From Calditrichota bacterium (GTDB taxonomy: Bacteria; Calditrichota; Calditrichia; JAJRVZ01): a DNA stretch of 40,713 nt. Under the pieces are notes generated by a model that had not been told where the DNA came from, made no database searches, and saw only the letters and a list, made by a program, of their open reading frames with translations. Location of the stretch: assembly GCA_024277055.1 (NCBI GenBank), contig JAJRVZ010000153.1:1-40713 (forward strand), given 5' to 3'. Of the stretch, positions 1 through 27,828 are shown piece by piece; the stretch's first letter is position 1; each line of letters opens with the position of its first letter. Both the position numbers and the translations under genes were made by a program.

Positions 1-704
1 AGGTTTTTCACATGCAAAGAGTTTTCCACCGCATGAGAAACCTGGTTGGCGAAGGTATGTAAAACCGAAAGGCTTTTGCTGTCGAAGGCATTATTGCTGT
101 TGCGGTTGTCCAGGTACACGGCACCGAAAACACGGTTATTGATGGTAAGCGGCAAACAGATAACCGATTTTATATTCAGGCGTACTACACTGGACCGAGA
201 AGCATATTTCTCGTCATTCTGGATCGAACCGGAGCTGATTTCACGTCCGTGATCGATTACTGCCCGGAGTATGGTGCGGCTGACCTGTGACTGAGGATCG
301 GCTAATTCCAAATCATCGATGGCGCGGGCTGCCTGGAACTCAAATTTGTTATTCTGATCGAGTACGGCAATAACCCCTCTTTCGGCGCCGGTGATTTTAA
401 TTACGGTATCCAGCGCAATTTCGAGTAAACGGGTTATATCTCTTTCTGAACCAAGCTCAATGCCTTTCTCATAGAGCAGTTTATAATATGCCACCCTTTG
501 CTGCAGCAGTTCGATTTCTTTCTTTGTTATTTTTTCGCTGCCGGATGTCTCTGCCGATTTATGAGATTGAAGTTTCATAACCTGCATGAACAGGTCTTTC
601 AGCTGAAGGCGCAATTCGGCGGATATTTCGGGCGAAGTTTTCTCCAGCGCTTCGGAAATGCGGTTTTCGAATCTGCTGAAGGATTCGGTAATCTTTTCAA
701 TCAT
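1..704 (-). CDS. GAF-domain protein, truncated by the left window edge (N-terminal part only)
   Basis: Reverse-strand open frame with no stop from ATG at 704..702 to base 1. Translation MIEKITESFSRFENRISEALEK...YEKGIELGSERDITRLLEIALDTVIKITGAERGVIAVLDQNNKFEFQAARAID...SVICLPLTINNRVFGAVYLDNRNSNNAFDSKSLSVLHTFANQVSHAVEN is typical GAF. Missing from the ORF track because it has no stop inside the window. Confidence 0.85.
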   Translation of the reverse strand, partial: MIEKITESFSRFENRISEALEKTSPEISAELRLQLKDLFMQVMKLQSHKSAETSGSEKITKKEIELLQQRVAYYKLLYEKGIELGSERDITRLLEIALDTVIKITGAERGVIAVLDQNNKFEFQAARAIDDLELADPQSQVSRTILRAVIDHGREISSGSIQNDEKYASRSSVVRLNIKSVICLPLTINNRVFGAVYLDNRNSNNAFDSKSLSVLHTFANQVSHAVENSLHVKN

Positions 705-3700
705 AGACTTTTGGTAAATAGTTCGACTGATTGTTATTTAACGCGTTGTTGATTTTCTGCAATTCCAGGATAATATCATCGGCGCTTTGGAAGCGGTCTT
801 CAACTTCTTTGCACATAGCTTTGAAAATGCATTGTTCCAGTTGTTCGGGAAAATCCGGTCTGAATTCGCGGATTGGCTGCGGTTTGTTTTTAAATATCTC
901 AAAAATCAGTGCCATATCGTGCTGTCCGACGAATGGCAGTCTGCCGGTTGCCATTTCATAAAGCACTACGCCGAGAGAATACAGATCGCTGCGGTGATCT
1001 ACTTCTTCGCCGACAGCCTGCTGCGGACTCATATAACAAAGTGTTCCCAGCAATACGTTTGTTTTGGTGGCAACGGTAAATATTGCCGATTTGGCCAGTC
1101 CGAAATCCATGAGTTTGATTTGCCCCGTGCCGGTTATAAAAACATTGTCGGATTTCACGTCCCTGTGCACGATGGAGTGCCGGTGCATTTCGGTCAATGC
1201 CCGGGCAACGGCTATTCCGGTTCGGGTTATCTGGCGTACGGGCAGGGGGGCTTTTTCCTTTATCAGGTCCCTGAGGGAAATGCCGTCCAGGTATTCCATT
1301 ACCAGATACGATTGATCGTACCATATGCCGGAATCAAGAATATGTACGATGTTGTCATGCTTCAGTTTAGCACCGACTTCACATTCTCGTTGGAATCGCT
1401 TCAATCCTTCTTCGCTTTCGGTGATACCTCGATGCAGCAGCTTCAGGGCCACGATACGCCGGTTTCGATCCCGTGCTTTATATACTTTGCCCATTCCGCC
1501 TTCACCGATTTCCGAAAGAATACGGTAACCTGCAATCACCGATTGCCTGCGCTGTCGCCAAATCAGTCCGCCTATATAGGGCAGCAATGTTACTAAAAGC
1601 ACGGGGGCGGCAAATACCAGCCAATGCCGCGCAGTGTAGGGTTGTATGCCGTTCACAATAAAAACAGCAAAATAAATGAGAAGGGCAATCAGGGTGAAAA
1701 CTCTTTTGGAATTCCGACTTTTCACGGCCACCCAGTCGATTTTTACGAGTACAAGATAAAGAGCGGCAAGGAACACAAGAAATTTCAACGATTCAAGCAA
1801 CCAGTCGGCACGCGCCGAAGTGAAGTGCAACGACCACAAAAATTTACTGAAAATACGGGCAAACAGGTTTTCGTCATGAACCGTGTATATTTTCCCCGGG
1901 CTGATACCGGTCAGATTTCCGCTGCTGCCGTCCGGGAAGCGGATATGTACGTTATATAATGTATCGGTGGCAACGGGAATGGACACGATGCTTGACCGCC
2001 GGGGCAGGACCGTACTGCCTTCAAAGCCGTTCAATACGGAGGTTAAATATTCTTCATTGCTGTTAAAAAGCCATATCCAGCTGCCGATTCCGAAATAGTT
2101 GTTGCGGCTGCATTCAAAACGAAGCCGGATGGAATACTTCCGTTCCAGATTATTCTGCAACAAAGCCAAACTGCGGCCGGTTGCGGAGTCGGGTTCCGAG
2201 CTGCCCAGCAAAAGGTCTTCATCCCCGTCAAGGTCAAAATCGGCCCAAGAAGGATGCCCCTCAAAACTGGCCTGGGCCGTGGCGGAGATGTTTTTAAAAC
2301 TTCGACCGGAAATATTCAGGAACAGTCCGCTGCTGATATACAGGTCCGGGTAATAGTCATGATTAATATCCGCCGGAGATGCTACCGCGGCAGACCAGTA
2401 GTAATGGTTACGGTTGACCGGGAAGCGAAGAAACCGCTTCTCCGGATTAATGGATTGCGCGCGGCCGCTGTAAATAAGGCCCTCTCCCCTGCGGCTGTAA
2501 ATAAAAAAATCCGGCCAACGGTCACGGTTGAAATCCGAAAAAACACCGGTGAAACTTTCATTATTGTCAAAATTATCGAAGGCATCATCATCAACTTTCC
2601 GGAAAAGCCCTTCTCCCATATTCAGCCATAATTCAGTGGATGCAAGATTGTAGGTAAGTAAAAGGTCGATATTATTGTCGACGTTAAAATCGTAGGGGGT
2701 AATCCCGATCAGCCTTTTTCCGGATTGAACAGGAATATCCAGTTCGATCTTCTCTGAAAATTTGCCGAAGCCGTCATTCAGGCATACACTTACCGGCAGG
2801 CCGTCTGCAGCGACCAGCAAATCGGGATAGGAATCCTTGTTATAATCCCAGAACCGAAGGGTAGGCCACGATTCAATCCGGAAGGTAATCGCCTCGAACG
2901 ACGATTGCTGATCCATTTTGAATACGAAAGGTTCCACCTGGCGAAAAAATACCGGGTGCCGGTTATCGTCAATCAGGACCATATCGAGCAGGCCGTCATT
3001 TTCAACATCGCCGAGGGCCGCCCCCGTACAATTCGGGTCGGCGGAACGGATGACCGGGTAAATCTGCAATTCGGTAAAACTGGCTTTGCCGCTGTTCAGG
3101 TACAAACGGTACGGAGACTGTCCGTCGGACAACATAACGATATCGGGATATTCGTCGTCATTTAAGTCCGTGAAAATGGCGCCGTAGCCGCCGGAAGGTA
3201 AATTGCTGCGTGCCGTTACATCACTGAAAGTAAGAGACCGGCTGTTGCTGTTGGTGATGATACCGTCGGTGGCGCACAACCACAGCTTATGCCTTTCCTG
3301 CTGTGGATAATAAAAGCCGTCAATATCTTCAAGCGGCCCGGTATTCAGGGCCTGTAGCGCGGGGAACTCCGTTATTTCCCCTCCCTGCAAATGAACAAGC
3401 AGCGATTTGCCGTTTTTTGCCCCGCCAAGCCAGATGTCATCTTTCGAAAAAACCTTAATACAGGTCAACTGCCATTTTGAATTCAACGGGCGTTGCGACC
3501 ATTTTCCATTTTCAAAGATCAGCAACGCACCCGATTTATTGACCGCCCAGCCGGTATTCGTGTCAAGGAACTGTACATCAGAAATACGGTTTTCACCATC
3601 CCGGACGAAGACCGTATAAACCTGCCAGGATTTTCCGTCGAAATGCAGTATATGCCCTTTATTGCCGACAGCCCAGGCATCGTCATCGGCAATTACTTCA

Positions 3701-4347
3701 ACAGCGTTCAGGTCAAAATCAAAGGTACCGTATCCTGAATTCCATTTAAGCGGTGAGGGAACCGCCTGCCAGCGCTGACCGTCGTAGTGTAGAATATTGC
3801 CCTTTTGTCCGACCGCCCAAAGATTTCCGGGCCGATTTCCGTCCAATGCCAGGAACATACTGTAGTCGATTTCGTCCCACATTATTTCAGGCAGGGTTTG
3901 TTTCTGCCAGCCACGGCCGTTGTAAAAATGAACCAGCGGCTGATAATTTCCGTAATGGGTCAGATGATTAAACGCCCAGACATAAAGCTGTCCGCGAAAT
4001 TTGAGCGTTTTCAGTAACGGAAAATCCGAATAGGGATAGGAGCGGATCGGTTTCCAGATTCCGTTGCGGTATTCATAAACTTTTCCCTCGATATTTTTAC
4101 CCATTCCCCGGCTCACGGCATAGCCCCTGTTTTCATCGAGCATTTGTACCTGGTGACCCAAAACCATTTTGTTTTCGACGAACCAGGAATAGCCGGTTTG
4201 TTCATCCGGTTGTTGAGCAAAGAGAACTGTGAAAGGGAAACAAAAAGTCAGAATGAAAAGAAGTTTGGATTTGGCGGAATCCTTAATTATTTTCAGCCCT
4301 GAAATAACCGGGCGATATATGCCGGAATTCAAAAAAGTTCTCCGCAT
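697..4347 (-). CDS. Receptor-like Ser/Thr protein kinase: signal peptide, WAVG/BNR-like propeller, FG-GAP/VCBS repeats, ASPIC/UnbV-like domain, three TM helices, C-terminal kinase
   Basis: Kinase motifs GEGGMGKVYKA, VALKLL, HRDVKSDNVF, DFGLAK, GTLCYMSPQQ. Ectodomain repeats such as NLWAVGQKGNILHYDGQRWQ and DLNDDEYPDIVMLSDGQSPYRLYLNSG. VHIRFPDGSSGNLTGISPGKIYTV resembles ASPIC/UnbV. Three hydrophobic segments precede the kinase. Confidence 0.92.
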   Translation of the reverse strand: MRRTFLNSGIYRPVISGLKIIKDSAKSKLLFILTFCFPFTVLFAQQPDEQTGYSWFVENKMVLGHQVQMLDENRGYAVSRGMGKNIEGKVYEYRNGIWKPIRSYPYSDFPLLKTLKFRGQLYVWAFNHLTHYGNYQPLVHFYNGRGWQKQTLPEIMWDEIDYSMFLALDGNRPGNLWAVGQKGNILHYDGQRWQAVPSPLKWNSGYGTFDFDLNAVEVIADDDAWAVGNKGHILHFDGKSWQVYTVFVRDGENRISDVQFLDTNTGWAVNKSGALLIFENGKWSQRPLNSKWQLTCIKVFSKDDIWLGGAKNGKSLLVHLQGGEITEFPALQALNTGPLEDIDGFYYPQQERHKLWLCATDGIITNSNSRSLTFSDVTARSNLPSGGYGAIFTDLNDDEYPDIVMLSDGQSPYRLYLNSGKASFTELQIYPVIRSADPNCTGAALGDVENDGLLDMVLIDDNRHPVFFRQVEPFVFKMDQQSSFEAITFRIESWPTLRFWDYNKDSYPDLLVAADGLPVSVCLNDGFGKFSEKIELDIPVQSGKRLIGITPYDFNVDNNIDLLLTYNLASTELWLNMGEGLFRKVDDDAFDNFDNNESFTGVFSDFNRDRWPDFFIYSRRGEGLIYSGRAQSINPEKRFLRFPVNRNHYYWSAAVASPADINHDYYPDLYISSGLFLNISGRSFKNISATAQASFEGHPSWADFDLDGDEDLLLGSSEPDSATGRSLALLQNNLERKYSIRLRFECSRNNYFGIGSWIWLFNSNEEYLTSVLNGFEGSTVLPRRSSIVSIPVATDTLYNVHIRFPDGSSGNLTGISPGKIYTVHDENLFARIFSKFLWSLHFTSARADWLLESLKFLVFLAALYLVLVKIDWVAVKSRNSKRVFTLIALLIYFAVFIVNGIQPYTARHWLVFAAPVLLVTLLPYIGGLIWRQRRQSVIAGYRILSEIGEGGMGKVYKARDRNRRIVALKLLHRGITESEEGLKRFQRECEVGAKLKHDNIVHILDSGIWYDQSYLVMEYLDGISLRDLIKEKAPLPVRQITRTGIAVARALTEMHRHSIVHRDVKSDNVFITGTGQIKLMDFGLAKSAIFTVATKTNVLLGTLCYMSPQQAVGEEVDHRSDLYSLGVVLYEMATGRLPFVGQHDMALIFEIFKNKPQPIREFRPDFPEQLEQCIFKAMCKEVEDRFQSADDIILELQKINNALNNNQSNYLPKVYD

Positions 4348-6041: not shown

Positions 6042-6725
6042 TTATCGGCAAACCCTGACGATCATCTCAAACGCAGCATTCGGCTGATCAGCCAGGAATA
6101 ATTTTTGCAAATAATCCAGGGTTTCGGCTAACCGGCTGTCCGCTACTTCGGGCGGGGTGAAGAACAGGGCAAGGCATTGTTTTGTTTCGGAAGTGATTCG
6201 GGTTCGTTTCGAATCGGCCGTCGGGTTTCCGAAAATGCCGTCATCGTCTCTCAGGATCAGTTTGCCGGCCGCGTGTATAACCGGCTTTGTTATCCCCTCA
6301 TAAACTTCATTTTCCCTGCCGACATCAAAAATGATCGTTCCGTTAATTTTCGCGGAATCGTATAATCCCATCGGCAGATAAAAGCGAATTGAAACAATAT
6401 TTGCGAGGTCCACAATATTATTGATCCGATACAACCCCTTATTTTTGATTATTCGCCGGATCATCGCCTCGGACGAAGGGCGGTATCGCGTCGGCTCCCA
6501 GCCGATGCGCCGGTACATTCGCCGCACGGCACCGACTACTTCATCTTCCGCCGGGGGCGCTTCGGCAAATTTTCGTGAAATAAACATGTGCACTTCTTCA
6601 AATGCCCGGTCAGCAACAGGTGAATCTTTGGTGACGTTTATGTTTTTAGTGAGGAGCAAGCCCAATTTAAGACCGGGAATTTTATTGCGAATTGCTTCTG
6701 AAAAATCTGTTTCAGGCAGATTCAC
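6042..6725 (-). CDS. Stand-alone B3/B4 (PheRS beta-chain-like) domain protein
   Basis: AVRRMYRRIGWEPTRYRPSSEAMIRRIIKNKGLYRINNIVDLANIVSIRFYLPMGLYD is characteristic of free-standing B3/4 domains. Confidence 0.85.
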   Translation of the reverse strand: MNLPETDFSEAIRNKIPGLKLGLLLTKNINVTKDSPVADRAFEEVHMFISRKFAEAPPAEDEVVGAVRRMYRRIGWEPTRYRPSSEAMIRRIIKNKGLYRINNIVDLANIVSIRFYLPMGLYDSAKINGTIIFDVGRENEVYEGITKPVIHAAGKLILRDDDGIFGNPTADSKRTRITSETKQCLALFFTPPEVADSRLAETLDYLQKLFLADQPNAAFEMIVRVCR

Positions 6726-7194
6726 TGTTCTCCCCCGGTACGGAATTTCTTTGCCTTACCTGCAGCAGAATATCTTTATTTACCTGTAACAGCCGGTGTA
6801 ACATCGAAAAGGACCAGGCCAGCATGATCCAGGCTGAAAAGGAAAAAATGGAATGCATCCAGCCGGGTGAAATGCCGGCATTGACAGCACCGCCATAAAT
6901 TCCCGATGTAACGATTAAAACGGCGGAGAGAAAAATGGGCGGAAACAAATATTTTTTTATTTGTCGGGTCTGCTGATACAGGTTGGCATCCAGATTTTTT
7001 GACTGTACCTCTTCTTTTATCATTGCGCCGGTAGTGATAAAATAAAACATGGTCAGGATTACCGTACCGATAAACAGGATAGCATATAAAAAACCCAGAA
7101 CCGGATGCAGTTCGTGGTGGTAATATCCGGTAAGGATCAGGACAAGACCGGCAAGCAGTACGGACAGGTTCAGGTAGCGCAGGAAGGTATTCAC
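6712..7194 (-). CDS. Integral membrane protein of unknown function (about 4 TM helices)
   Basis: Hydrophobic helices LNLSVLLAGLVLILTGYY, FLYAILFIGTVILTMFYFI, PIFLSAVLIVTSGIYGG, SIFSFSAWIMLAWSFSML. Tight overlaps with both neighbours. Confidence 0.75.
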   Translation of the reverse strand: MNTFLRYLNLSVLLAGLVLILTGYYHHELHPVLGFLYAILFIGTVILTMFYFITTGAMIKEEVQSKNLDANLYQQTRQIKKYLFPPIFLSAVLIVTSGIYGGAVNAGISPGWMHSIFSFSAWIMLAWSFSMLHRLLQVNKDILLQVRQRNSVPGENSESA

Positions 7195-7499
7195 CGGGAG
7201 AGTTTCCTTCCCAGTGTTTTTTCCACTTTATCAATTTTACGGTTCATCCTTTTTTCTTTACCCCGCCGGTAATCAATTTTTATACTGACGCTGATCCGCT
7301 TACAGTCCTTTTCAAGTTCAAGAAAGCAATCGCGGACAATTTTCATCACCTCATCCCATTCGCCTTCAAGCACCGTACCCATGGGATTCAGACGATAATC
7401 GATACCGCTTTCATCAATGATTTTCAGAATACGAGATACATACGGACTCAGGCTTTCTCCTTTGTCCAGCGGGCTCATACTGAATTCAAGCAGAACCAT
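7191..7499 (-). CDS. MTH1187/YqgV family (DUF77) thiamine-binding-like protein
   Basis: LLEFSMSPLDKGESLSPYVSRILKIIDESGIDYRLNPMGTVLEGEWDEVMKIVRDC matches the family pattern. Confidence 0.88.
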   Translation of the reverse strand: MVLLEFSMSPLDKGESLSPYVSRILKIIDESGIDYRLNPMGTVLEGEWDEVMKIVRDCFLELEKDCKRISVSIKIDYRRGKEKRMNRKIDKVEKTLGRKLSR

Positions 7500-15334: not shown

Positions 15335-17440
15335 ATGAAATATATCGTATCGCTGCTGGTTCTGATGAGCAGCGTGATGGCACAGGACCATCTGCTGATT
15401 TCTGAAATTCAAACCAATCCGAAAGATCATTCATTCATTGAAATTTACAATCCGACCGGCCAGACGGTTAGTTTGGATAATTATTATCTTGCGGATTACA
15501 ATACTTACTACCGCTTGGTTGCGAATTCCTATACCAGTGACAGCCGTGATTTTATCGTTCGCTTTCCGGCGGGAGCGAATATTACCGACGGGCAGGTGCT
15601 GGTGGTTGCCGTGAAAGGCGGAACCTTTGAGACGCAATACGGCTTTGCTCCCGATTTTGAGATCATTGCCGGGTCGACCGCCTCCGACATGGAGATTCTG
15701 GCATTCGGTGCCCAGGGCGAGATTTCCCGAACTTCGGAAATGCTGATACTATTCGAATGGGATGGCGTTTCGGATCTGGTTCGGGATGTCGACTATTTTA
15801 TATGGGGAACCGGCACATCGACATTCACCGACAAAAGCGGCGTCAGTATTGATGGTCCCGATTCCGATACCAATATGTCTTCTTTCCTGAATGATACGCC
15901 GGTGGACAGTCAAAATGCCCCGACGGCGCCGGCATTTGGAAAATCGCTGGAACGGGCCGGTATCACGGAATCAGCCGAAACGGCTGCCGGCGGCAACGGC
16001 ATTTCGGGCCATGATGAAACCAGCGAAGATATCACGACCTCGTTTATCATCAACGATACGCCGACACCCGGACAGTTTTCGCCCCTGGGGCCGCCGCCGC
16101 TGATCAGCAATTTGCAGTTCGACCCGGCGTTGCCGACCGCTTCGGATCGGGTTACCGTTTCGGCGGAGGTTACCGATAATGGCACCTTGCAACGCGTTCA
16201 ATTGTTCGTATCGTTAAACAACACTTCGTTTGACAGCAGTGATATGCAACCGGTAAGCGGAAATGTTTACGAAGCGATCATTGATTCACAGTCAGCCGGA
16301 ACCAACGTTCGTTTTTTCGTGCTGGCAGAAGATGACGCCGCCCAGATCACCCGCTCGGATACGCTCAGTTACGCGGTCAGTTCGGGTCAGCCGGGCGAAC
16401 CGCATTTGTTGATCACCGAATTGTCGGTTACGCCGAATGATGGTGAGTTTGTTGAAATTTATAACAACACCGGCCAGACCATTGACCTGTCGGATTATTA
16501 TTTAACCGACGCCACTTTTTCCGGCGGCGGCGAGTTTTATTACAACATCGTATTGGGTACCAATGCGGCAGGGGGCAGCAATTCCTTTGATTTTCATGTT
16601 CGGTTTCCGGCCGGCGCAAGTATAGCGCCTGGGGAATTTCAAACCGTCGCCATGCACGGCAGCGGATTTGTGACGACTTTCGGGGTACAGCCGAACTACG
16701 AACTGACCGACTCGGACCCCGGCATTGCCGATATGCGGGAAGCACTGCCCGGATTGATCGGGGGACAGTACAGCCTTTCCAATTCAGGGGAAGTAATTAT
16801 CCTGTACGAATGGGACGGTCAGAGTGACCTGGTTCAGGATGTGGAGTATATTGTCTGGGGCGATAAAGCCGAAGCGGTGGATAAAAGTGGCGTTTCCATC
16901 GATGGTCCGGATGCAGACAGCACTCCCTCCGTTTATTTGAATGATACACCGGTTGCAAACCAGATCGCCCTGCCGGAAAATCCGCATACAGTGGGAGAAT
17001 CCGTGCAGCGCGTAATCCTACTGGAAGCATCGGAAACCGCCATCGGCGGTAACGGGCTTACAGGACACAATGAAACCAGTGAGGACCTGGTTTCCGCCTT
17101 CGTCGTAGGTACGCCCAACCCGGGCAGCGGCCCCGCGCCGGTCGAAGCGCCGCAGATTACAAATGTTACCCGTACCCCGCTTACACCTGCAACATCGGAC
17201 GAAGTTACGGTCAGTGCCGACGTGACGGATAACGGTACGGTCGTGTTGGTGCAATTGTTTGTTTCGCTGGATTCCGCACCGTTCGACAGTTCTGCAATGG
17301 TACTGCAAAATGGCAATACCTATCAGGCTGTTATCGATTCACAACAGGCGGGCACCCTGGTACAGTATTATGTAAAAGCCGAAGATGACAGCGGCCTTAC
17401 CAGCAGCAGCAGTGTTTTCCAGTACACCGTTTTATCCTGA
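15335..17440 (+). CDS. Secreted protein with two lamin-tail (LTD) domains, each followed by an Ig-like/Y_Y_Y-type domain; 5' part of an interrupted gene
   Basis: Signal peptide MKYIVSLLVLMSSVMAQ. LTD motifs HLLISEIQTNPKDHSFIEIYNPTGQTVSLDNYYLADY and HLLITELSVTPNDGEFVEIYNNTGQTIDLSDYYLTD. Ends at TGA 17438-17440 with the same frame open beyond. Confidence 0.88.
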   Translation: MKYIVSLLVLMSSVMAQDHLLISEIQTNPKDHSFIEIYNPTGQTVSLDNYYLADYNTYYRLVANSYTSDSRDFIVRFPAGANITDGQVLVVAVKGGTFETQYGFAPDFEIIAGSTASDMEILAFGAQGEISRTSEMLILFEWDGVSDLVRDVDYFIWGTGTSTFTDKSGVSIDGPDSDTNMSSFLNDTPVDSQNAPTAPAFGKSLERAGITESAETAAGGNGISGHDETSEDITTSFIINDTPTPGQFSPLGPPPLISNLQFDPALPTASDRVTVSAEVTDNGTLQRVQLFVSLNNTSFDSSDMQPVSGNVYEAIIDSQSAGTNVRFFVLAEDDAAQITRSDTLSYAVSSGQPGEPHLLITELSVTPNDGEFVEIYNNTGQTIDLSDYYLTDATFSGGGEFYYNIVLGTNAAGGSNSFDFHVRFPAGASIAPGEFQTVAMHGSGFVTTFGVQPNYELTDSDPGIADMREALPGLIGGQYSLSNSGEVIILYEWDGQSDLVQDVEYIVWGDKAEAVDKSGVSIDGPDADSTPSVYLNDTPVANQIALPENPHTVGESVQRVILLEASETAIGGNGLTGHNETSEDLVSAFVVGTPNPGSGPAPVEAPQITNVTRTPLTPATSDEVTVSADVTDNGTVVLVQLFVSLDSAPFDSSAMVLQNGNTYQAVIDSQQAGTLVQYYVKAEDDSGLTSSSSVFQYTVLS
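15389..17437 (+). repeat. Two tandem LTD + Ig-like units (about 15389-16402 and 16403-17437)
   Basis: Protein-level repetition: DKSGVSIDGPDSDT.../DKSGVSIDGPDADS..., GGNGISGHDETSED/GGNGLTGHNETSED, VQLFVSLNNTSFDSSDM/VQLFVSLDSAPFDSSAM. Confidence 0.85.
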
Positions 17441-19333
17441 GGCGATTTTATTCCCATCGCCGACATTCAGAACAATCCCGGGTTTGTCGGACAAACCGTG
17501 ACCATTCAGGGAGTAGTGACGCTGGGGGCGGGTAAAACCATTGATACGCGCACCGATGCCTATGTACAGGATAATTCGGGCCGGGGTATCAATATTTTTC
17601 AATTTGACACAGTGGATACAACCCTGGTACGCGGCAATCTGGTACGAATTACGGGAACCGTTGAGGAATTCAACGGAATAACGGAAATTACCAATTACAC
17701 CTCTGAAGTTGTTGAAAAGGCACAACCGCTTCCGACAGCATTAAAACTTTCAACATCGGATGCTACGGATACACAATACGAAGGGACGTTAATCCAAACC
17801 AGCGGCGTCATCAGCGATTTGTTTGCCGCAGGCGGTGGAACCAATATCATCATTAACGACGGAAGCGGTGAGGTTACACTGCGTGTCTGGGATACTACCG
17901 GCCTGAACGTCTCACCGTTCGCTGTCGGCGATACCATCCGGTGCGTGGCCGTTATGGATATTTTCAACAATGCAGGTCAGCTCACTCCGGCCTACAATGG
18001 AGACATTTTCTTTACAAGCATCGAACAGGCGGCCGACGGTTCGGGCATTGTTTCGGTTCTGCCGGACCAGGTAAATAAAAGTGAAGCGGCCACCCTGTCG
18101 TTTACTTTCACCGGCAACAGCGCGGATACGGTTTCACAGATCAGCATAAATGTTCCGAATGAATGGAGTTTTACTTCCAACCCGAATGACGTCGGTTTGA
18201 GCGGTTCCGTGTTCGGTTCGGCGCAGGTCGGCATTAACGGTCGTCAGGTTCTGATCACGGATGCGGTAATCGAAGACCGGACACAGGGTGAAATTCAGAT
18301 CGGCGGACTGACCGCACCGGCTGTTGATACGGTGTCGGTATTTACCGTGCAGTCGGCGGGTACCGGGGGTAGTCTGACGGAAGTTGCCATTTCCCCAACG
18401 GTAATGGTCGGCAAAGGAACCGCCGTACAAACCGTGCCGATGGATTCGATCCAGAAGAATATCGATTTCTGGAACGGCAAACAGGTGGCGATTCAGGGCG
18501 TGGTCACCATCGGCGCCGGCGTTTTGATAACAAGCCGTACTTCCGCCTATGTGAATGACTCAACCGCTTTCGGGTTGCAGGTATTCAGCTTCGACCCGCC
18601 CGACCCGGCCATCGAACGGGGCAATCTGGTACTGATCCGCGGGACGATTGAAGAGTTTAATGCGATCACCGAAATTACCGATTACACCGTGCGGGTATTA
18701 CGGAGAAACGTCGATCTGCCGACCCCGCTGCAGATAACAACCAAACAGGCAACGGGGCTGGGACTGGAAGGTTCATGGGTACGGCTCAGCGGTACAATTG
18801 TTGATAAATACAGCGCTGGCGGGGGAACCAATATCATAGTTGATGACGGCAGCGGTGAAGTCACCATCAGGGTGTGGGATACGGCCGGTCTGGACCTGAC
18901 CGACTTCACTGCCGGTGACGGTATCGTGGCAAAGGGGATCATCGGCGAATTCAGCGATACGGGGCAGCTGCTTGTCGGTTATCAGGAAGATATCGGTTTC
19001 GTTGTTTTGCCGAAAGCGCCGATCGGCCTGAAGGTACCCAACAAGCCCTTCGTACCCGACCGGGGAGAATTGTTCGATATTACCTTCAGTGCGGGAAGCG
19101 AAAACACTCAGGTGACCATACGTATTTATGACCTGGCCGGCCGACTGATTACAACACTGCTGGATGACCAGGGGCGTTCATTTGAACAAACCTTGCGCTG
19201 GAACGGGCGGGATCAGCTGAATGAACTGGTGCCGCTTGGCGCTTACATTTTGCACCTTGAGGTTGTAGATGAAAGCACAGGGAAAACAACGCAGAAAACC
19301 GCACCAATCGTTGTTGGTACGATCTTAAAATAA
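17441..19333 (+). CDS. OB-fold repeat protein with FlgD-like Ig C-terminal domain; 3' part of the interrupted LTD/OB gene
   Basis: Same frame as 15335..17440; translation after the TGA reads GDFIPIADIQNNPGFVGQTVTIQGVVTLGAG. The ORF track begins at an internal GTG (17498). No signal peptide at that start. C-term VTIRIYDLAGRLITTLLDD...LRWNGRDQLNELVPLGAYILHLEV is FlgD-like. Confidence 0.82.
   Translation, partial: GDFIPIADIQNNPGFVGQTVTIQGVVTLGAGKTIDTRTDAYVQDNSGRGINIFQFDTVDTTLVRGNLVRITGTVEEFNGITEITNYTSEVVEKAQPLPTALKLSTSDATDTQYEGTLIQTSGVISDLFAAGGGTNIIINDGSGEVTLRVWDTTGLNVSPFAVGDTIRCVAVMDIFNNAGQLTPAYNGDIFFTSIEQAADGSGIVSVLPDQVNKSEAATLSFTFTGNSADTVSQISINVPNEWSFTSNPNDVGLSGSVFGSAQVGINGRQVLITDAVIEDRTQGEIQIGGLTAPAVDTVSVFTVQSAGTGGSLTEVAISPTVMVGKGTAVQTVPMDSIQKNIDFWNGKQVAIQGVVTIGAGVLITSRTSAYVNDSTAFGLQVFSFDPPDPAIERGNLVLIRGTIEEFNAITEITDYTVRVLRRNVDLPTPLQITTKQATGLGLEGSWVRLSGTIVDKYSAGGGTNIIVDDGSGEVTIRVWDTAGLDLTDFTAGDGIVAKGIIGEFSDTGQLLVGYQEDIGFVVLPKAPIGLKVPNKPFVPDRGELFDITFSAGSENTQVTIRIYDLAGRLITTLLDDQGRSFEQTLRWNGRDQLNELVPLGAYILHLEVVDESTGKTTQKTAPIVVGTILK
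17453..19011 (+). repeat. Duplicated OB-fold units (about 17453-18010 and 18434-19011)
   Basis: QTVTIQGVVTLGAGKTIDTRTDAYVQD / KQVAIQGVVTIGAGVLITSRTSAYVND; GGGTNIIINDGSGEVTLRVWDTTGL / GGGTNIIVDDGSGEVTIRVWDTAGL. Confidence 0.85.
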
Positions 19334-19369
19334 GAAATACTGAAAGCAATTTTGCAAATGGGATGCCAG

Positions 19370-20239
19370 ATGAAAATTAGAATTATATTATTGTTTACCA
19401 TCTTTTATGGTTCCGTTCAGGCCGGATTGTTTGACGATCGTTTCCCCTCGGCAAGGGCCTCGGCGATGAGCGGTTCTTTTGTTGCCGTTTCCAACGATGT
19501 CTGGGCGGGATACTATAATCCGGCGGGATTGGCGCGGGTCGGCAACAACCAATTCGGGGCTTCCTACCAGATACCCTTCAATCTGAATTTTTTCCGCAGT
19601 TTTTTTGTCAGCGGCGTCATGCCGCTACCGGAAAATTTCGGAACCGCGGGCGTGTCGTTTCAGGATTTCGGCGTGGACTTTATGGGTAACAGTTTGTCCA
19701 GCGAATACACTTTCGCCTTTTCACACGGTTTTTACCTCATGAAAGACATTCACTCCGCGTTGACCGTCGGGTATAATCTGAAATACTATTACTGGGACCT
19801 GGGTGAATCCGTCGGCGGGCTTAATCTGGGTTCGGCCGGCACCTTCGGAATGGATGTTGGATTCCAGGCGTCGCTTTACCAGCGCACTTGGGTCGGCGTC
19901 TATTTTCTGAACCTGAATGCACCGCAAATCGGTGAATTCACGAAGCACGATTTGCCGCAGCGTATTGTAATCGGCGCCGCCTATATGCCGCAGAACGGCG
20001 TAACGACCAGTATTTCAATGAATAAAACGATCGGATTGCAAACCCAGATCGAAGGTGGATTTGAATTGGATGTTATGGAGTACGTGAGCATTCGACTCGG
20101 GGTCAGTACCGAACCGAACCGATTTTCCGGTGGTATTGGAATTCATTATGAAGGATTCAATTTTGATTATGCCCTTCGAACGCACCCGGTATTGTCTGAA
20201 ACCCACCAGTTCGCTTTGCAGTACAGCATTGATAATTGA
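19370..20239 (+). CDS. PorV/PorQ-like (UPF0164-type) outer-membrane barrel protein
   Basis: Signal peptide MKIRIILLFTIFYGSVQA, then PSARASAMSGSFVAVSNDVWAGYYNPAGLARVGNNQFGASY (PorV/FadL-like N-terminus). The track start at 19352 is a TTG; ATG 19370 gives the better signal peptide. Confidence 0.82.
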   Translation: MKIRIILLFTIFYGSVQAGLFDDRFPSARASAMSGSFVAVSNDVWAGYYNPAGLARVGNNQFGASYQIPFNLNFFRSFFVSGVMPLPENFGTAGVSFQDFGVDFMGNSLSSEYTFAFSHGFYLMKDIHSALTVGYNLKYYYWDLGESVGGLNLGSAGTFGMDVGFQASLYQRTWVGVYFLNLNAPQIGEFTKHDLPQRIVIGAAYMPQNGVTTSISMNKTIGLQTQIEGGFELDVMEYVSIRLGVSTEPNRFSGGIGIHYEGFNFDYALRTHPVLSETHQFALQYSIDN

Positions 20240-20292
20240 CGTGGATAGAGAAAATGATAAACCCAAAATTTAACTAAAATGAATTCCGGAAG

Positions 20293-22812
20293 ATGAAACT
20301 CAGTGCACATATCCTTTTAATCGGACTGATAATTGTTGCAACCCTGTCGGGTGTATTGGCGGGGCAGGAATATACCCGTTATAACCAGTTGGATATCAAT
20401 AATGCCGGTTTTGAAGAAATTCAGAAATTACCGGTTTCAACGGATATTGCCCGGCGTTTGTACGAGCGGGTATTATACAAGGGCTTTTTTAAAAGTATTT
20501 ACGAACTGCGGGAAGTAAAAGGAATTGATCAGCAATTACTGAACCGGCTGAAACCGCTGATCCGCATTGAACCTTTCCGCCCCAGGACCAGCTGGGAAGA
20601 AAAAGTGGAGCAGATTTACTATCAGCTGGACCGCTGGAGCGGCAATGAGGGCATTAACGATACGTTTATCGACCTGTGGATCGAAAAAGCGCTGGATCCG
20701 CTGAACGTGAACAATATTCGCTATGATGAACTGATCAACCTGCAAAATGTGTCGCCGGTAGACGCGGTGGCTATCCTGAATTACCGCAGGGAGATCAGCG
20801 ACATTCGCAATGCGCGCGACCTGCGCGGTATCCCCGGTCTTTCCTATTACGGCTACCGCAATGCCCGCCGTTTCCTGGATTATAAGGAACCGCCCGCTGC
20901 GGAAACGCAGGGCTTGCACGGTTATGTTACGATACGACTGGACAATACCCCGTTTTTTTCCGATGAAGATGCGGCGGCGACGGAAGCAGGGGTGACAACC
21001 CTGGAAAATCAGCTGGATTTCGGCGCCAACACTTTGCCCAATATTTATTATAAGATGCGTTTCAGCTGGAACCGCAATTATAAATTCGGTTATTCCTATG
21101 TCCGCAATCTTAATGAACCGGACCTGTATTTCAACGACGGTTCCTTTAAACTGCCGAGGGGTAAATTTTACGTCGGTGTTGAAAATCAGCAGCTGGGTAA
21201 ATTGCAGCTGCGCAAACTGCACGCGGGAAACTATGCCGTGTCATTCGGTCATGGTGTTATCATGGATAATACCGATTTTTTTGTACCGCGTAAAAGCGGC
21301 TACGGATTCCGCAAGCGCTTTAACGGGCTGTCCGGTGATAATTCCCGAACTCGTGAATATGCCTTAAAAGGCCTGGCTGCCGAAATTGGTTATGATAATT
21401 TCAGTGCGGTTCTGTTCGGCTCTTTCAATTCCCGCGATGCCATCCTGAATACACAGATTTATGACAGCACCCGCGGCCGTGGTTTTAACCAGCTGGTTGT
21501 TCTCGATCAGCGCTTTGCCTTCGCTCCGGACGATTCCCGTCGTCTCCCGGACGACCTGAACCTGTCCTGGCGCAACTCTGTGCGGGAACTGACCTACGGG
21601 GCTCATGTACAATACGATTTTTTCCCGGGTACCTATCTCGGTTTTACCTTTTATGAAAGCGCCTACGACCGTCCCATCGAGCCGGTAATCAATGAGGTGG
21701 TTGCCCCGGAAAATATGGGGCGGCTGGTTACAGCCGACAATGAGATCCGTCAGGCATACGGCTTCGACGTGTCGAAGGGAGACAATCCGTTCTGGAGTAA
21801 GGCCGTTTCGTTTCGCCGGATTTTCGGTTTTGATTTTCAAACCGTCATTAATAACGTCGCCATACAGGGGGAATTCGGCGAACTGGATAAAGGCGGCAGT
21901 GTGTTTAAACTGGGTGATGATCCCAGGGCGATGGTGTTATCCGCTTACACACAATACAATAATCTGAATATACTGGCGTTGTATCGTAATTACGATCTGG
22001 GATATGACAATCCGTACCAGCGGTCTTTTTCCAATTACCGGCGATTTAAGGGTACGATCTACGAAGATTATTATTACCTGCAGTCTTCCCTGTACGGTCA
22101 GCTGTACGGCAATGCACCGCAGCCGCAGTCGGAGGAAGGATATTATCTGAGCAGCTATTATCAGATCAACCGCAACCTGACTACGCAGGTGGAATACGAC
22201 AACTGGACGCGCAAGGCCGACCAGGCGGCACAATACCGGCTGGTGGGTACGCTCAATTACCGTCCGGTTTTTCCGGTGCGCATCCAGTTGCGGCAGAAGT
22301 GGCAGGCTCGGGATGAGCAGAATAATGTGACGCTGCGCTTTTTCAAAAACCTTGAATTTCGCGGTCGGATCGATTTTCGCCTTTCGGGATTCGATAATCT
22401 GAGCCTGCTGTATGTGAACAGTAAAACCATCGTTCACCCCCGTCCGCGGGTGTTCGGAGACATGGTGCTGGATGCCGAAGCCATCGGTACGATAATCACA
22501 CACAATTTCAACCGCAACCTGAAACTGAGCGGCATGCTGGCCTATTACCAGGGGTTCTTCTGGAATTTCGAAGATACGCAATTTGTCGTGCTGGAGTCCC
22601 AGCGCGGTGCACTGCGCACCTGGTGGTCGCTTTACGCGCGTCTGAACAACAATTTTTCCGCCCGGCTGAAGTTTACGCTGGATCAGCAGAAACCGCTGAC
22701 CAACATCGCCTTCAATGATGTCCGCGATCCGGTGGCCGGTCGGGCCAATGAAACGGATATTTTGCGCAAAACCAACAGTTATTTTTATCTGGAATTCAAC
22801 TATAATTTTTGA
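20293..22812 (+). CDS. Exported helix-hairpin-helix (ComEA-like) N-terminal repeats fused to a large predicted outer-membrane beta-barrel
   Basis: Signal peptide; HhH segments LDINNAGFEEIQKLPVSTDIARRLYERVLYKGFFKSIYELREVKGIDQQLLNRL and LNVNNIRYDELINLQNVSPVDAVAILNYRREISDIRNARDLRGIPGL; about 600 aa of alternating aromatic strands ending YFYLEFNYNF. Confidence 0.85.
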   Translation: MKLSAHILLIGLIIVATLSGVLAGQEYTRYNQLDINNAGFEEIQKLPVSTDIARRLYERVLYKGFFKSIYELREVKGIDQQLLNRLKPLIRIEPFRPRTSWEEKVEQIYYQLDRWSGNEGINDTFIDLWIEKALDPLNVNNIRYDELINLQNVSPVDAVAILNYRREISDIRNARDLRGIPGLSYYGYRNARRFLDYKEPPAAETQGLHGYVTIRLDNTPFFSDEDAAATEAGVTTLENQLDFGANTLPNIYYKMRFSWNRNYKFGYSYVRNLNEPDLYFNDGSFKLPRGKFYVGVENQQLGKLQLRKLHAGNYAVSFGHGVIMDNTDFFVPRKSGYGFRKRFNGLSGDNSRTREYALKGLAAEIGYDNFSAVLFGSFNSRDAILNTQIYDSTRGRGFNQLVVLDQRFAFAPDDSRRLPDDLNLSWRNSVRELTYGAHVQYDFFPGTYLGFTFYESAYDRPIEPVINEVVAPENMGRLVTADNEIRQAYGFDVSKGDNPFWSKAVSFRRIFGFDFQTVINNVAIQGEFGELDKGGSVFKLGDDPRAMVLSAYTQYNNLNILALYRNYDLGYDNPYQRSFSNYRRFKGTIYEDYYYLQSSLYGQLYGNAPQPQSEEGYYLSSYYQINRNLTTQVEYDNWTRKADQAAQYRLVGTLNYRPVFPVRIQLRQKWQARDEQNNVTLRFFKNLEFRGRIDFRLSGFDNLSLLYVNSKTIVHPRPRVFGDMVLDAEAIGTIITHNFNRNLKLSGMLAYYQGFFWNFEDTQFVVLESQRGALRTWWSLYARLNNNFSARLKFTLDQQKPLTNIAFNDVRDPVAGRANETDILRKTNSYFYLEFNYNF

Positions 22813-22824
22813 ACGGGGATGTGA

Positions 22825-24195
22825 ATGAAATACTATTGGACACCCATCCTGCTTATACTCTGCACCGCTTCATTGTCGGCGCAGACCGGGAATCTGAATT
22901 TTTCAAAAATGACATACGGTCAACAGGCTGTTTTTTTTAACGCACGGTCCATGGCGCTGGGCGGATCAGGCATAGCCGGGGCAAAGGCTGTTCACGGAGC
23001 CGCCCTTAATCCGGCATTACTGACGCGGTCGGAAAAGGATGTGCAGTTTTCTGTCAGCGGCCTGATGCATAAACTGGAAGAGGATCGCTCTTTTCCCTAT
23101 TACGATAATTTCGGCGGTTTTGTCGATTACGGCTCGTTTGCATTCAACGATAACTGGTATGGTGATTTTCAGTTTAGTGCCATTGCACGCATTCCCAACG
23201 AAACGATCGGCAACCTGGTTGTAGGGCTTTCGCTGAATAATATATCCGATTTCAATTATGAGTACGTGGAAGAAGTGCGTACCACCGGTTTTTCCGACGC
23301 CATTCTGGCCTATAACCGCATTGAATCGGACGGCGTGTTCCGAAATTTCCTGCTGAGTGTCGCCCTGCAACCCGTGGAGAATATTTCTGTTGGAATCAGC
23401 CTGGGGCTGATCAGCGGCGAAGTGGACCAGGCGGCAGCCATCGATTCCGTTGATGACAGTATGCAAAATATCCGTATGCTGGAAAGAAATAACCTGACTA
23501 TCGACAACACGGCCATTCAAGCATCTTTTGGAGCCACGATGCAGGTCAACCCATTCCTGAAACTGGGCGCTACGGTTACTTTGCCGGTAACGCTTTCGCT
23601 GAAAAACAGCTATCGCTGGGATACACAAAATACAACATTGCCGCGCATAATCGGATTTAACAACCCGATACAGCTGTCTTTTTCAGAGGGTACCTCCGGG
23701 TTTGATTCGGTTGCAACTGCGAAATTCACCAGAGAGATCAAATGGCCGCTGCAACTGGGTTTTGGCGGAGAGTACCGGTTTACTAACGTACTACAGGCGC
23801 TGATCAGTTTCGATTTCCGCTATACGTTCTGGTCTGATTTTGAAGACGACCTGGTAGACAAAACCGGGTTTGAAGACAGCTGGCGGGTGAGCAGCGGCAT
23901 CGAACATATCTTTTTTGACAACATGCCCTTCCGGGTCGGATTCAGTCACGGTACGCTGCGCGAGGGACGCGAATTTACGCGCACCGTTTTCACGGTTGGT
24001 ACCGGCATGCAATTTGATAAATTTACGATCGATATTTCAGGCGCCTATTCGGAACTCACTTACAACCAGCGGGACATGTTCGATAACAGCATCTATCCTC
24101 CGCTGGTAACAAGGACGGACATTCTCGACCGGGTTAAAAGCAATGATGTCTATGTAATGCTTGAAGCCCGTTACTATCTGGATTGGATTGAATGA
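22825..24195 (+). CDS. PorV/FadL-like outer-membrane beta-barrel protein
   Basis: Signal peptide MKYYWTPILLILCTASLSAQ; FFNARSMALGGSGIAGAKAVHGAALNPALLTRSEKDVQFSVSG; barrel-like remainder. Confidence 0.78.
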   Translation: MKYYWTPILLILCTASLSAQTGNLNFSKMTYGQQAVFFNARSMALGGSGIAGAKAVHGAALNPALLTRSEKDVQFSVSGLMHKLEEDRSFPYYDNFGGFVDYGSFAFNDNWYGDFQFSAIARIPNETIGNLVVGLSLNNISDFNYEYVEEVRTTGFSDAILAYNRIESDGVFRNFLLSVALQPVENISVGISLGLISGEVDQAAAIDSVDDSMQNIRMLERNNLTIDNTAIQASFGATMQVNPFLKLGATVTLPVTLSLKNSYRWDTQNTTLPRIIGFNNPIQLSFSEGTSGFDSVATAKFTREIKWPLQLGFGGEYRFTNVLQALISFDFRYTFWSDFEDDLVDKTGFEDSWRVSSGIEHIFFDNMPFRVGFSHGTLREGREFTRTVFTVGTGMQFDKFTIDISGAYSELTYNQRDMFDNSIYPPLVTRTDILDRVKSNDVYVMLEARYYLDWIE

Positions 24196-25826
24196 TGACA
24201 AAAACGCAATTCAATAAATGCTTTATCTATCCGCTGCTGATTCTTTTCTTCGGTAGCGTCCCGGCGACGGCGCAGGATGATATGCAGCGTCTCATCATTT
24301 TTTACACCAATGATGTTCACGGCGGTATCACCGAACAGGAAGCCGATTTTTTGAATCCGGATTTTCCACCGATCCTGGGCGGCGGCGCGGCGGCGGCGAA
24401 TATTATTTTTCGGGCACGCAAAGAAGCGGAAAAACGGGGTGACATTGTGCTGGTGCTGGATGCCGGCGATATTTTTCAGGGAACGCCGCTGGGCACTAAA
24501 ACCGAAGGGCAGGCGATAATCGAATATATGAACCGTGTCGGTTACGACGCGGCAACAGCCGGAAATCATGATTTTGATCTTGGCAAGGAAGTATTCATTA
24601 ATCTGACCAAAACCGCAAAATTTCCCGTCCTCTCTGCAAATCTGCTGGACCGGGAAACCAGGAAAGTTTTTTCTGCGGTAAAACCCTACACCATTATCGA
24701 ACGGGGCGGATTGAAAATCGGTATTTTCGGACTGTCCACCGAGGCGACGGAAAATATGAGTTTCCCCGATAATATTGCCGGACTCGATTTTTCCGCGGAA
24801 GCACCGGCCGCGCAGAAGGCCGTCGACGCCCTGCGTGAAAAGGGCGTTGATCTGGTTATCGGCCTGGTGCACATGGGATTGCCCTATGATGTCCAGGAAG
24901 GGTACGCCGACCTGAAAGAAGCACAAAAGCAGAATATTGTCAAGGCTTCCTATTTGAACGCCATGGAACTGGCCTCGATGATAACCGGAATCGATATCCT
25001 TTTCGGAGGACATATTCACCGCGGGTATCAGGAACCGTGGGAAGATCCGGAAAATCATACCCTCTGTTTTCAGAATTACGGAAACGGCGGTAACCTGGGC
25101 ATGACAATAATAAAAATCGACAAAGAAACAAAATCAATCGCCGGATACGAATTACCGGGACGCGACGGCAGTCTGCTGTTACTGACCGAAGATGAATTCT
25201 GGCCCGATCCTGAAATCGCTGCCGATATTAAACGCAAACAGGCCGAGGTGGAAAAAGGGTATGACGAAGTTATCGGATTTGCCGAGTTCAATATAACCCG
25301 TTCCGGGGAGGGAACGTCGCCGATGAGCATGCTGCTTTGTGATGCCATGCTCGAAGCAACACAGGCAGACTTTGCCATGACCAATTTCGGCGGTATCCGC
25401 GCAGAAATAAAGGCGGGGCCGATCACCCCGCGCGATCTGTTTAAAGTGATGCCCTTCGGCAATTCACTGGTGGTCATGCAGATGACCGGTGAATTTTTAA
25501 AGCAGGTTGTTGAAAGTCGCGTAGCCGGCCGGCATCGCGGTGTGGCCATCGGCGGCGGAAGGGTGGAATATGATACCTCCCGCCCGGACGGTAATCGCAT
25601 CACCTCGTTTATGGTCGGCGATTATCCGCTCTATCCGAAAAAAGTGTACCGTGTTACCGTAACCGATTACCTGGCCGAAGGTAATTCCGGCATGGACCTG
25701 CTGTTACAGGTAAATGAAGCCAATATCGCCCGGACGGGGATTTTATTGCGCGAGGCCGTGAGCCAGTATATTCAGAACCATTCACCGCTGCGAATCAAAA
25801 ACGACGGCCGCTGGATCAAGCACTGA
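24192..25826 (+). CDS. Exported 5'-nucleotidase / UDP-sugar hydrolase / 2',3'-cyclic phosphodiesterase family protein
   Basis: Signal peptide; metallophosphoesterase motifs YTNDVHGG, DAGDIFQGTP, GNHDFDLG, GLVHMG, GGHIHRG; C-terminal domain TNFGGIRAEIKAGPITPRDLFKVMPFGNSLVVMQMTG. Confidence 0.93.
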   Translation: MMTKTQFNKCFIYPLLILFFGSVPATAQDDMQRLIIFYTNDVHGGITEQEADFLNPDFPPILGGGAAAANIIFRARKEAEKRGDIVLVLDAGDIFQGTPLGTKTEGQAIIEYMNRVGYDAATAGNHDFDLGKEVFINLTKTAKFPVLSANLLDRETRKVFSAVKPYTIIERGGLKIGIFGLSTEATENMSFPDNIAGLDFSAEAPAAQKAVDALREKGVDLVIGLVHMGLPYDVQEGYADLKEAQKQNIVKASYLNAMELASMITGIDILFGGHIHRGYQEPWEDPENHTLCFQNYGNGGNLGMTIIKIDKETKSIAGYELPGRDGSLLLLTEDEFWPDPEIAADIKRKQAEVEKGYDEVIGFAEFNITRSGEGTSPMSMLLCDAMLEATQADFAMTNFGGIRAEIKAGPITPRDLFKVMPFGNSLVVMQMTGEFLKQVVESRVAGRHRGVAIGGGRVEYDTSRPDGNRITSFMVGDYPLYPKKVYRVTVTDYLAEGNSGMDLLLQVNEANIARTGILLREAVSQYIQNHSPLRIKNDGRWIKH

Positions 25827-26193: not shown

Positions 26194-27828
26194 ATGAGCA
26201 CGTCTTTTTCAATCAGTCCGGCCGGAGAGAAATTCACATTACCCACTGCGGAAGAGCATAAAAAAGAGTTTGAGCGCATTCGTGAGCGGGTGGCGGAGCA
26301 ACGTAAAACGGGCCGTGAGATCGTCGTTGTTATGGGGGTGGGTTTTGTAGGTGCGGTAATGGCGGCCATCGTTGCCGACACTACCGATGAAAAAGGAAAA
26401 CCCTCAAAATTTGTAATAGGCATGCAGCGTCCCAGTGTACGAAGTTTCTGGAAAATTCCCCTGCTCAACCGGGGCGTCTCTCCGGTCAAGGCGGAAGACC
26501 CCGAGGTAGACCCGATGATCCGGCGGTGTGTGCTGGAGAAAAAAACGTTGATGGCCACCTACACCTACGATGTGTTGTCGCTGGCGGATGTGGTGGTGGT
26601 GGATGTTCAATGCGACTATCTGAAAGAAGAGTTGGGCAATGTTCGCAGCGGCAGCACCGATATGGCCGCACTGGAAAACTCCATTGCCGTTATCGCCGGG
26701 CACATTCCTGCCGATGCGCTGGTCCTGATTGAAACGACTGTTGCGCCGGGAACAACCGAACAGGTCGCCTATCCGATCATGAAAAAGATATTCCGAAAGC
26801 GGGGCATTGAGAGCGATCCCCTGCTGGCCCACAGCTACGAGCGTGTCATGCCGGGACGAAATTACGTGGCCAGTATCCGGGATTTCTGGCGGGTATGCAG
26901 CGGCATCAATGAACAGGCGAAACAGAGGGTGGTGAAATTCCTGAATGAAGTTCTGAACACAAAGGAGTACCCGTTGACGGTAATGGACCGGCCGATAGAA
27001 TCGGAGACTGCAAAAATCGTGGAAAACAGCTATCGGGCAACCATTCTGGCCTTTCTAGATGAATGGAGTCTCTACGCCGAACGCAACGGCGTGGATCTGA
27101 TTAAAGTAATCAAGGCCATAAAAATGAGGCCCACGCACAACAATATTATTTTCCCCGGACCGGGTATCGGCGGTTACTGTCTGCCTAAAGATGGCGGGCT
27201 GGGTGTCTGGGCCTACAAACATATTCTTGGTTTTGAAGATGATATTTTCAAAATCACCCCGCAGGCTATTGATATCAATGATACCCGCGGATTACATGTG
27301 GCCCAGCTGACACGCGACGCCCTGCGCAACATGGGGCAACCGATCGCTGCGGCTGATATTCTCGTACTGGGCGCCGCCTACCGGGAAGACGTGGGCGATA
27401 CCCGGTACAGCGGCTCGGAGATCGTCATCCGAAAACTGGCGGAAATGGGCGCTGAAATAAAAGTGCACGATCCCTATGTGGAACACTGGTGGGAATTTGA
27501 ACAGCAGGATACTTATCCCGGAGAGGGACACAGTAAAGCCCGCTTTTTCCGCAACCAGGAGAAACTGAAAGAATTGCGCATTGAACAGGATTTGAAAACA
27601 GCATTGAATGATGCCGAGGCGGTTATTTTCGCTGTTCGGCATGAAGCTTACCTGAATCTTGATCCCGATGAAGTGGTACAAAATATCGGACACCCGGCGG
27701 CGATCATTGATTGTTTCGGCATTTTATCGGATGAACTGATCCGCCGTTATTTTGAACTGGGTTGTGAAGTGAAGGGCCTGGGTCGCGGACATATTCAGCG
27801 CCTTAAGGAAGAAGTGCGCAGTAAATAA
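26194..27828 (+). CDS. Nucleotide-sugar (UDP-glucose/GDP-mannose type) dehydrogenase with N-terminal extension
   Basis: Rossmann motif VVVMGVGFVGAVMAAIVAD; SETAKIVENSYRATILAFLDEW; catalytic-Cys motif GPGIGGYCLPKDGG; C-terminal domain LGAAYREDVGDTRYSGSEIVIRKL. Confidence 0.9.
   Translation: MSTSFSISPAGEKFTLPTAEEHKKEFERIRERVAEQRKTGREIVVVMGVGFVGAVMAAIVADTTDEKGKPSKFVIGMQRPSVRSFWKIPLLNRGVSPVKAEDPEVDPMIRRCVLEKKTLMATYTYDVLSLADVVVVDVQCDYLKEELGNVRSGSTDMAALENSIAVIAGHIPADALVLIETTVAPGTTEQVAYPIMKKIFRKRGIESDPLLAHSYERVMPGRNYVASIRDFWRVCSGINEQAKQRVVKFLNEVLNTKEYPLTVMDRPIESETAKIVENSYRATILAFLDEWSLYAERNGVDLIKVIKAIKMRPTHNNIIFPGPGIGGYCLPKDGGLGVWAYKHILGFEDDIFKITPQAIDINDTRGLHVAQLTRDALRNMGQPIAAADILVLGAAYREDVGDTRYSGSEIVIRKLAEMGAEIKVHDPYVEHWWEFEQQDTYPGEGHSKARFFRNQEKLKELRIEQDLKTALNDAEAVIFAVRHEAYLNLDPDEVVQNIGHPAAIIDCFGILSDELIRRYFELGCEVKGLGRGHIQRLKEEVRSK

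Follow-up and report, generated by a model that had tools for sequence, protein, structure and literature searches.

Gene run and its products

Analysis of the window, the whole stretch of 40,713 nucleotides considered here, indicated that positions 15335-25826 carry a same-strand run of genes coding for a LTD/OB secreted protein, a PorV-family barrel, a HhH-containing barrel, a FadL-family barrel and a 5'-nucleotidase-family enzyme. A sequence-only reading had described the run as five consecutive loci. The run and its order were confirmed, with the open reading frames and gaps (19333/19370, 20239/20293 and 22812/22825) lying where that reading had placed them. The start codon of the PorV gene is ATG 19370, and the FadL gene overlaps the 5'-nucleotidase gene by 4 bases (24192-24195). 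The LTD/OB locus (15335-19333), however, is not a single open reading frame as it contains an in-frame TGA at 17438-17440. The export signals also held up: N-terminal signals of the hydrophobic type are visible in the LTD, PorV, HhH, FadL and 5'-nucleotidase products. The intergenic gaps are short and strong terminators are absent between the genes of the run. Promoter-like sites numbered 26 compared with 13.7 expected from shuffled sequence and some of them lie within the gaps, so that internal promoters may still be present. PHROGs and PADLOC searches gave no result.

The LTD half of the secreted protein (15335-17440, forward strand) carries a signal peptide, two LTD domains (PF00932, 1e-21) and Ig-like Big_7-like regions (PF17957), and ends at the in-frame TGA. 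The OB half (17441-19333, forward strand) contains tandem OB-type domains (PF01336, 7e-9; partial match to NF033681) and a C-terminal Ig-like sorting-type domain, and has neither a start codon nor a signal peptide of its own. Downstream of the TGA the frame goes on without a credible start, the first listed one (GTG 17498) lying inside the first OB domain and being devoid of a signal peptide. The relatives have no stop at this point, the open reading frame being uninterrupted across the LTD/OB junction in about 17 of them and over the full LTD-OB length in two; in the window, therefore, the cargo gene is broken or the assembly is wrong at this point. Recoding of the TGA was judged unlikely since the same codon terminates four other genes of the run, and a nonsense mutation or an assembly or sequencing error is the more likely origin. 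As it stands, the cargo gene is interrupted in the window, and it may be either inactive or misassembled. The LTD half has a pI of 4.05 and the LTD/OB proteins are acidic in general (median pI about 4.2). The OB region is similar to that of the ExeM/NucH extracellular DNases, to which NF033681 refers. A fold search run on the OB half only, with a structure model of low confidence (pLDDT 54), gave tandem-OB HIN domains as top structural matches.

The second gene (19370-20239, forward strand) encodes a PorV-family outer-membrane barrel, a candidate dedicated shuttle or anchor. Its match to the PorV/PorQ family model NF033709 (5e-19) reached 69 bits, below the cut-off of 90, and 34/35 family members matched the same model at E <= 0.001. 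The profile of the cluster PorV matched the structure of the T9SS shuttle PorV (6h3i) over profile positions 24-168. The cluster barrel differs from PorV in being shorter, in lying below the cut-offs of both NF033710 and NF033709 and in having its own genomic partner. The PorV and FadL-like barrels of the cluster are mutually related. As a separate observation, three class genomes, that of the window included (G000:C383), carry a second PorV-family gene directly beside a Peptidase_M23-type gene (L152, L153 and L155; the peptidase was checked with Pfam for L152 and L153).

The third gene (20293-22812, forward strand) encodes a protein predicted to form an outer-membrane barrel and carrying, at its N-terminus, ComEA-like HhH units (HHH_3, PF12836, 1e-14) that comprise four hairpins. 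The barrel prediction follows from a visible signal peptide, a C-terminal aromatic pattern in which the last residue is F or W in 26/26 sequences, and an amphipathic-strand score in modest excess (z 2.6). No Pfam barrel model was found for this protein, HhH domains were the only matches of its profile in the PDB, and an AlphaFold model derived from a two-sequence alignment (pLDDT 28) was discarded. Alignment of 37 HhH homologues revealed that none retains Gly-x-Gly in any of the four hairpins, where the commonest residues are Pro-Val/Ile-Ser/Pro, Gly-Met/Ile-Asp/Thr, Asn-Val-Ser and Gly-Leu-Ser, respectively. In the class, three ComEA-like proteins, among them L079 of the genome of the window, each keep Gly-Ile-Gly in one hairpin. 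The charge of the HhH units was also considered as an argument on DNA binding and was set aside as it points neither way, the first unit of the window being mildly basic and the family near neutral.

The fourth gene (22825-24195, forward strand) encodes a FadL-family barrel that scored 29.7 bits against PF03349 (Toluene_X), exactly the gathering score of 29.7. Its profile found 9hiv_F (named outer membrane protein), TbuX, CymD and FadL as best solved matches, and TodX was matched as well. The protein thus resembles the structures of the FadL family, which includes BamG, but was rejected as the BamG of the genome (NF053685, 76.6 bits against a cut-off of 250), a better copy being present elsewhere. 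The last gene (24192-25826, forward strand) encodes an exported enzyme with Metallophos and 5_nucleotid_C domains and the intact motifs TNDVHG, GDIFQG, GNHD, GGHIH and NFGGIR, as found in the UshA/5'-nucleotidase family. Outside the run, the product of the downstream gene at 26194-27828 resembles by eye a nucleotide-sugar dehydrogenase, and this gene is not conserved as a member of the cluster; 697-4347 on the reverse strand encodes a protein of 1216 aa in which FG-GAP repeats are combined with a protein kinase domain at the C-terminus.

Conservation of the gene order

The sequence-only reading had named conservation of the neighbourhood as the point on which its operon should stand or fall, and the result was strongly in its favor. 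In a search of 98 genomes, 35/40 members of the class of the window proved to contain the HhH-barrel gene, either complete or truncated at a contig end as in G001. Beyond the class, a profile search gave long matches in 35 genomes, which belong to 22 families; full-length copies occur once per genome. The order LTD/OB secreted protein, PorV-family barrel, HhH barrel, FadL-family barrel and 5'-nucleotidase is conserved at most testable loci within the class and kept in most of these 22 families. When loci with too little flanking sequence were set aside, the HhH gene was accompanied in the class by PorV in 29/29, OB/LTD in 28/28, FadL in 25/27 and the nucleotidase in 15/24 loci, and outside the class by the same genes in 27/31, 25/26, 26/32 and 17/27 loci, respectively. 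One of the two FadL genes missing in the class corresponds to masked sequence. Two loci, L031 and L108, lie on one contig; L108 alone entered the gene-order counts and both entered the count of tails given below. An apparent HhH-FadL fusion in L052 proved to be an artefact of masked bases, and a gap between OB and PorV in L032 was not a lost C-terminus, the tail being present. A search of open-access papers found no description of this combination of genes.

The nucleotidase gene adjoins the cluster in 32/51 testable loci, inside and outside the class together. In the three class families devoid of a cluster-adjacent nucleotidase a close homologue is usually found elsewhere in the genome, and within the class a close nucleotidase is present in 32/35 genomes with the HhH gene and in 0/5 without it (Fisher p = 9e-5). 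Neither the cluster PorV nor the close nucleotidase occurs in the five genomes without the HhH gene (G002, G017, G032, G035 and G038), an absence that we take as supporting only, since three of these genomes are incomplete and linkage between the genes is frequent.

Distant versions of the cluster vary in content. L064 has a PLD-family gene within the cluster (6664-7251, reverse strand), L063 has two CAP-domain genes at the corresponding place, and L061 has a Peptidase_M28 gene in the position of FadL.

Cargo tail and T9SS genes

Analysis of the C-terminal region of the cargo (19007-19330, forward strand, ending APIVVGTILK) indicated that it is a domain of the FlgD/T9SS Ig type with its own conserved terminus, APIVVGT.LK in the class. 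A tail of this VVG type was present in 53/53 cargos adjacent to PorV and the ordinary K..LLK tail in 0/53, counted with a broad expression that was composed after the sequences had been seen. Among 23 LTD/OB proteins of the same loci that do not adjoin PorV, 14 carry the ordinary tail and 7 the special one, most of the latter belonging to additional cargo genes in the run.

In each of 12 genomes, with 30 to 150 domain matches each, the cluster tail was the top match to its own profile (144 bits against 66 for the next in the genome of the window), and the cluster PorV was likewise the best of many paralogues in 12 genomes (426 versus 144 bits), top scores that are favored as cluster members went into both profiles. 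The type A model TIGR04183 gave 18-19 bits in the window, under its cut-off of 23, and matched 5/27 cluster tails at E <= 0.01; the type B model TIGR04131 was absent from the NCBIfam hits for the window protein and for the 27 tails. For these reasons the cluster tail is regarded as a putative T9SS signal. A PorU-like nature of the tail, raised by the NCBIfam hits, was rejected since the end of that model matches many CTDs and the PorU proteins of the same genomes bear the ordinary tail, as seen in five sampled genomes including that of the window.

The genome of the window contains SprA_N and a full PorU scoring 883 bits (cut-off 420). Outside the class, SprA_N was found in 33/35 genomes carrying the cluster and in 58/310 others (Fisher p = 2e-19, without phylogenetic correction), a co-occurrence that may reflect shared ancestry. 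The two cluster genomes in which SprA_N gave no match (G144 and G280) belong to one genus.

A related tail, of the VVV type, was also observed on LTD proteins about 571 aa long (L154:1112-3740, reverse strand; L148:1168-2880, forward strand). In L154 a PorV-like gene follows the VVV-tailed LTD gene, which suggests a further cargo/shuttle pair.

A proposed T9SS-dependent surface complex and competing readings

The explanation that we favor, and hold to be rather likely, is that the run encodes a single outer-membrane and surface complex dependent on the T9SS. The LTD/OB protein would be exported by Sec and then, directed by its C-terminal sorting-like domain, would use the SprA translocon to pass the outer membrane. 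Its own PorV-family barrel, the product of the next gene, would receive it at the surface and keep it there. This cargo/PorV pair would have the HhH and FadL-family barrels as fixed partners in the outer membrane, the degenerate HhH units possibly forming a periplasm-facing module for protein binding or gating, and the exported 5'-nucleotidase-family phosphatase might act on the material handled by the complex. A similar arrangement has been described for the T9SS type B cargos of Flavobacterium johnsoniae, each served by a cognate PorP/SprF-like shuttle whose gene often follows that of the cargo directly (PMC12618676, PMC9143113): in both cases a distinctive C-terminal domain, a FadL-superfamily barrel gene directly downstream and a conserved pairing occur in a T9SS genome. 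The present cluster differs in that its barrel belongs to the PorV/PorQ family, its tail reaches the cut-off of neither curated model, and its conserved unit comprises two further barrels and a nucleotidase.

A conserved outer-membrane complex delivered by the T9SS is thus the probable product of the cluster, and the link to the T9SS is better supported than a function in nucleic-acid handling. The large HhH-fused predicted outer-membrane barrel, found in 35/40 class genomes and 22 outside families, mostly with the same partners, and without description in open-access papers, is tied to the T9SS by the cluster, and the cluster also points to an additional kind of cargo tail served by a shuttle of its own. 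The names of the domains (OB, HhH) can by themselves mislead on function.

The sequence-only reading had proposed extracellular nucleic-acid scavenging, in which the OB protein binds DNA or RNA outside the cell, the outer-membrane proteins let it or its products through and the nucleotidase completes the release of phosphate and nucleoside. Its exported unit stands, given the conserved order, the signals and the mostly outer-membrane or surface products, but nucleic-acid capture is not supported, the HhH hairpins being without Gly-x-Gly and the LTD/OB proteins acidic, and we consider scavenging unlikely. The resemblance of the OB region to ExeM/NucH, the tandem-OB (HIN) matches of the low-confidence model, the retention of an intact-motif nucleotidase beside or along with the cluster and the PLD-family protein of one distant cluster are all consistent with it, and the DUF5689 neighbours, which share a domain with a transformation protein of Riemerella, are suggestive of a nucleic-acid function. 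OB folds, however, bind many kinds of ligand. Pfam and NCBIfam searches found no nuclease in the run, as had been noted from the sequence; the cluster protein shares LTD and OB domains with the ExeM/NucH nucleases but by Pfam lacks their endonuclease/exonuclease/phosphatase domain, and its NF033681 match is only partial.

Surface handling of a phosphorylated lipid, a glycan or another non-nucleic-acid ligand, in which the UshA-family enzyme would act as a phosphatase or pyrophosphatase while a hydrophobic product is moved by the FadL-family barrel, appears somewhat less probable still. Conservation of the FadL-family barrel, the inclusion of SoxB and UDP-sugar hydrolase in the enzyme superfamily and the CAP or peptidase genes of some distant clusters agree with such a ligand, but the closest solved relatives of the cluster enzyme are nucleotidases. 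We give slightly lower credence again to a previously undescribed T9SS-dependent multi-barrel complex, with its own tail class and dedicated PorV-like shuttle, in which the HhH-fused barrel would let nucleic acids or nucleotides pass the outer membrane independently of type IV pili.

Least probable is DNA uptake in natural transformation, with the HhH barrel as an outer-membrane entry exerting a ComEA-like pull and the OB protein as a surface DNA receptor: the ComEA-like HhH units on a predicted barrel and the LTD/DUF5689 proteins adjoining the cluster in relatives recall Riemerella anatipestifer, whose transformation needs a DUF5689 secreted protein, an outer-membrane protein and a HhH protein (PMC8459023), but the likeness is one of theme, the Riemerella HhH gene lies at another locus, and the cluster units, although similar to ComEA/HHH_3 proteins, are joined to a predicted barrel and have degenerate hairpins in a genome with a separate ComEA-like protein (L079), the secretin matches of most class genomes being nearly all below the PilQ cut-off.

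The co-occurrence of ComEC was tried as a test of uptake and abandoned, this gene being near-universal and hence uninformative. A second, shorter relative of the HhH barrel (about 643-681 aa; L138-L141) is also present in class genomes, where it occurs without the cluster partners.
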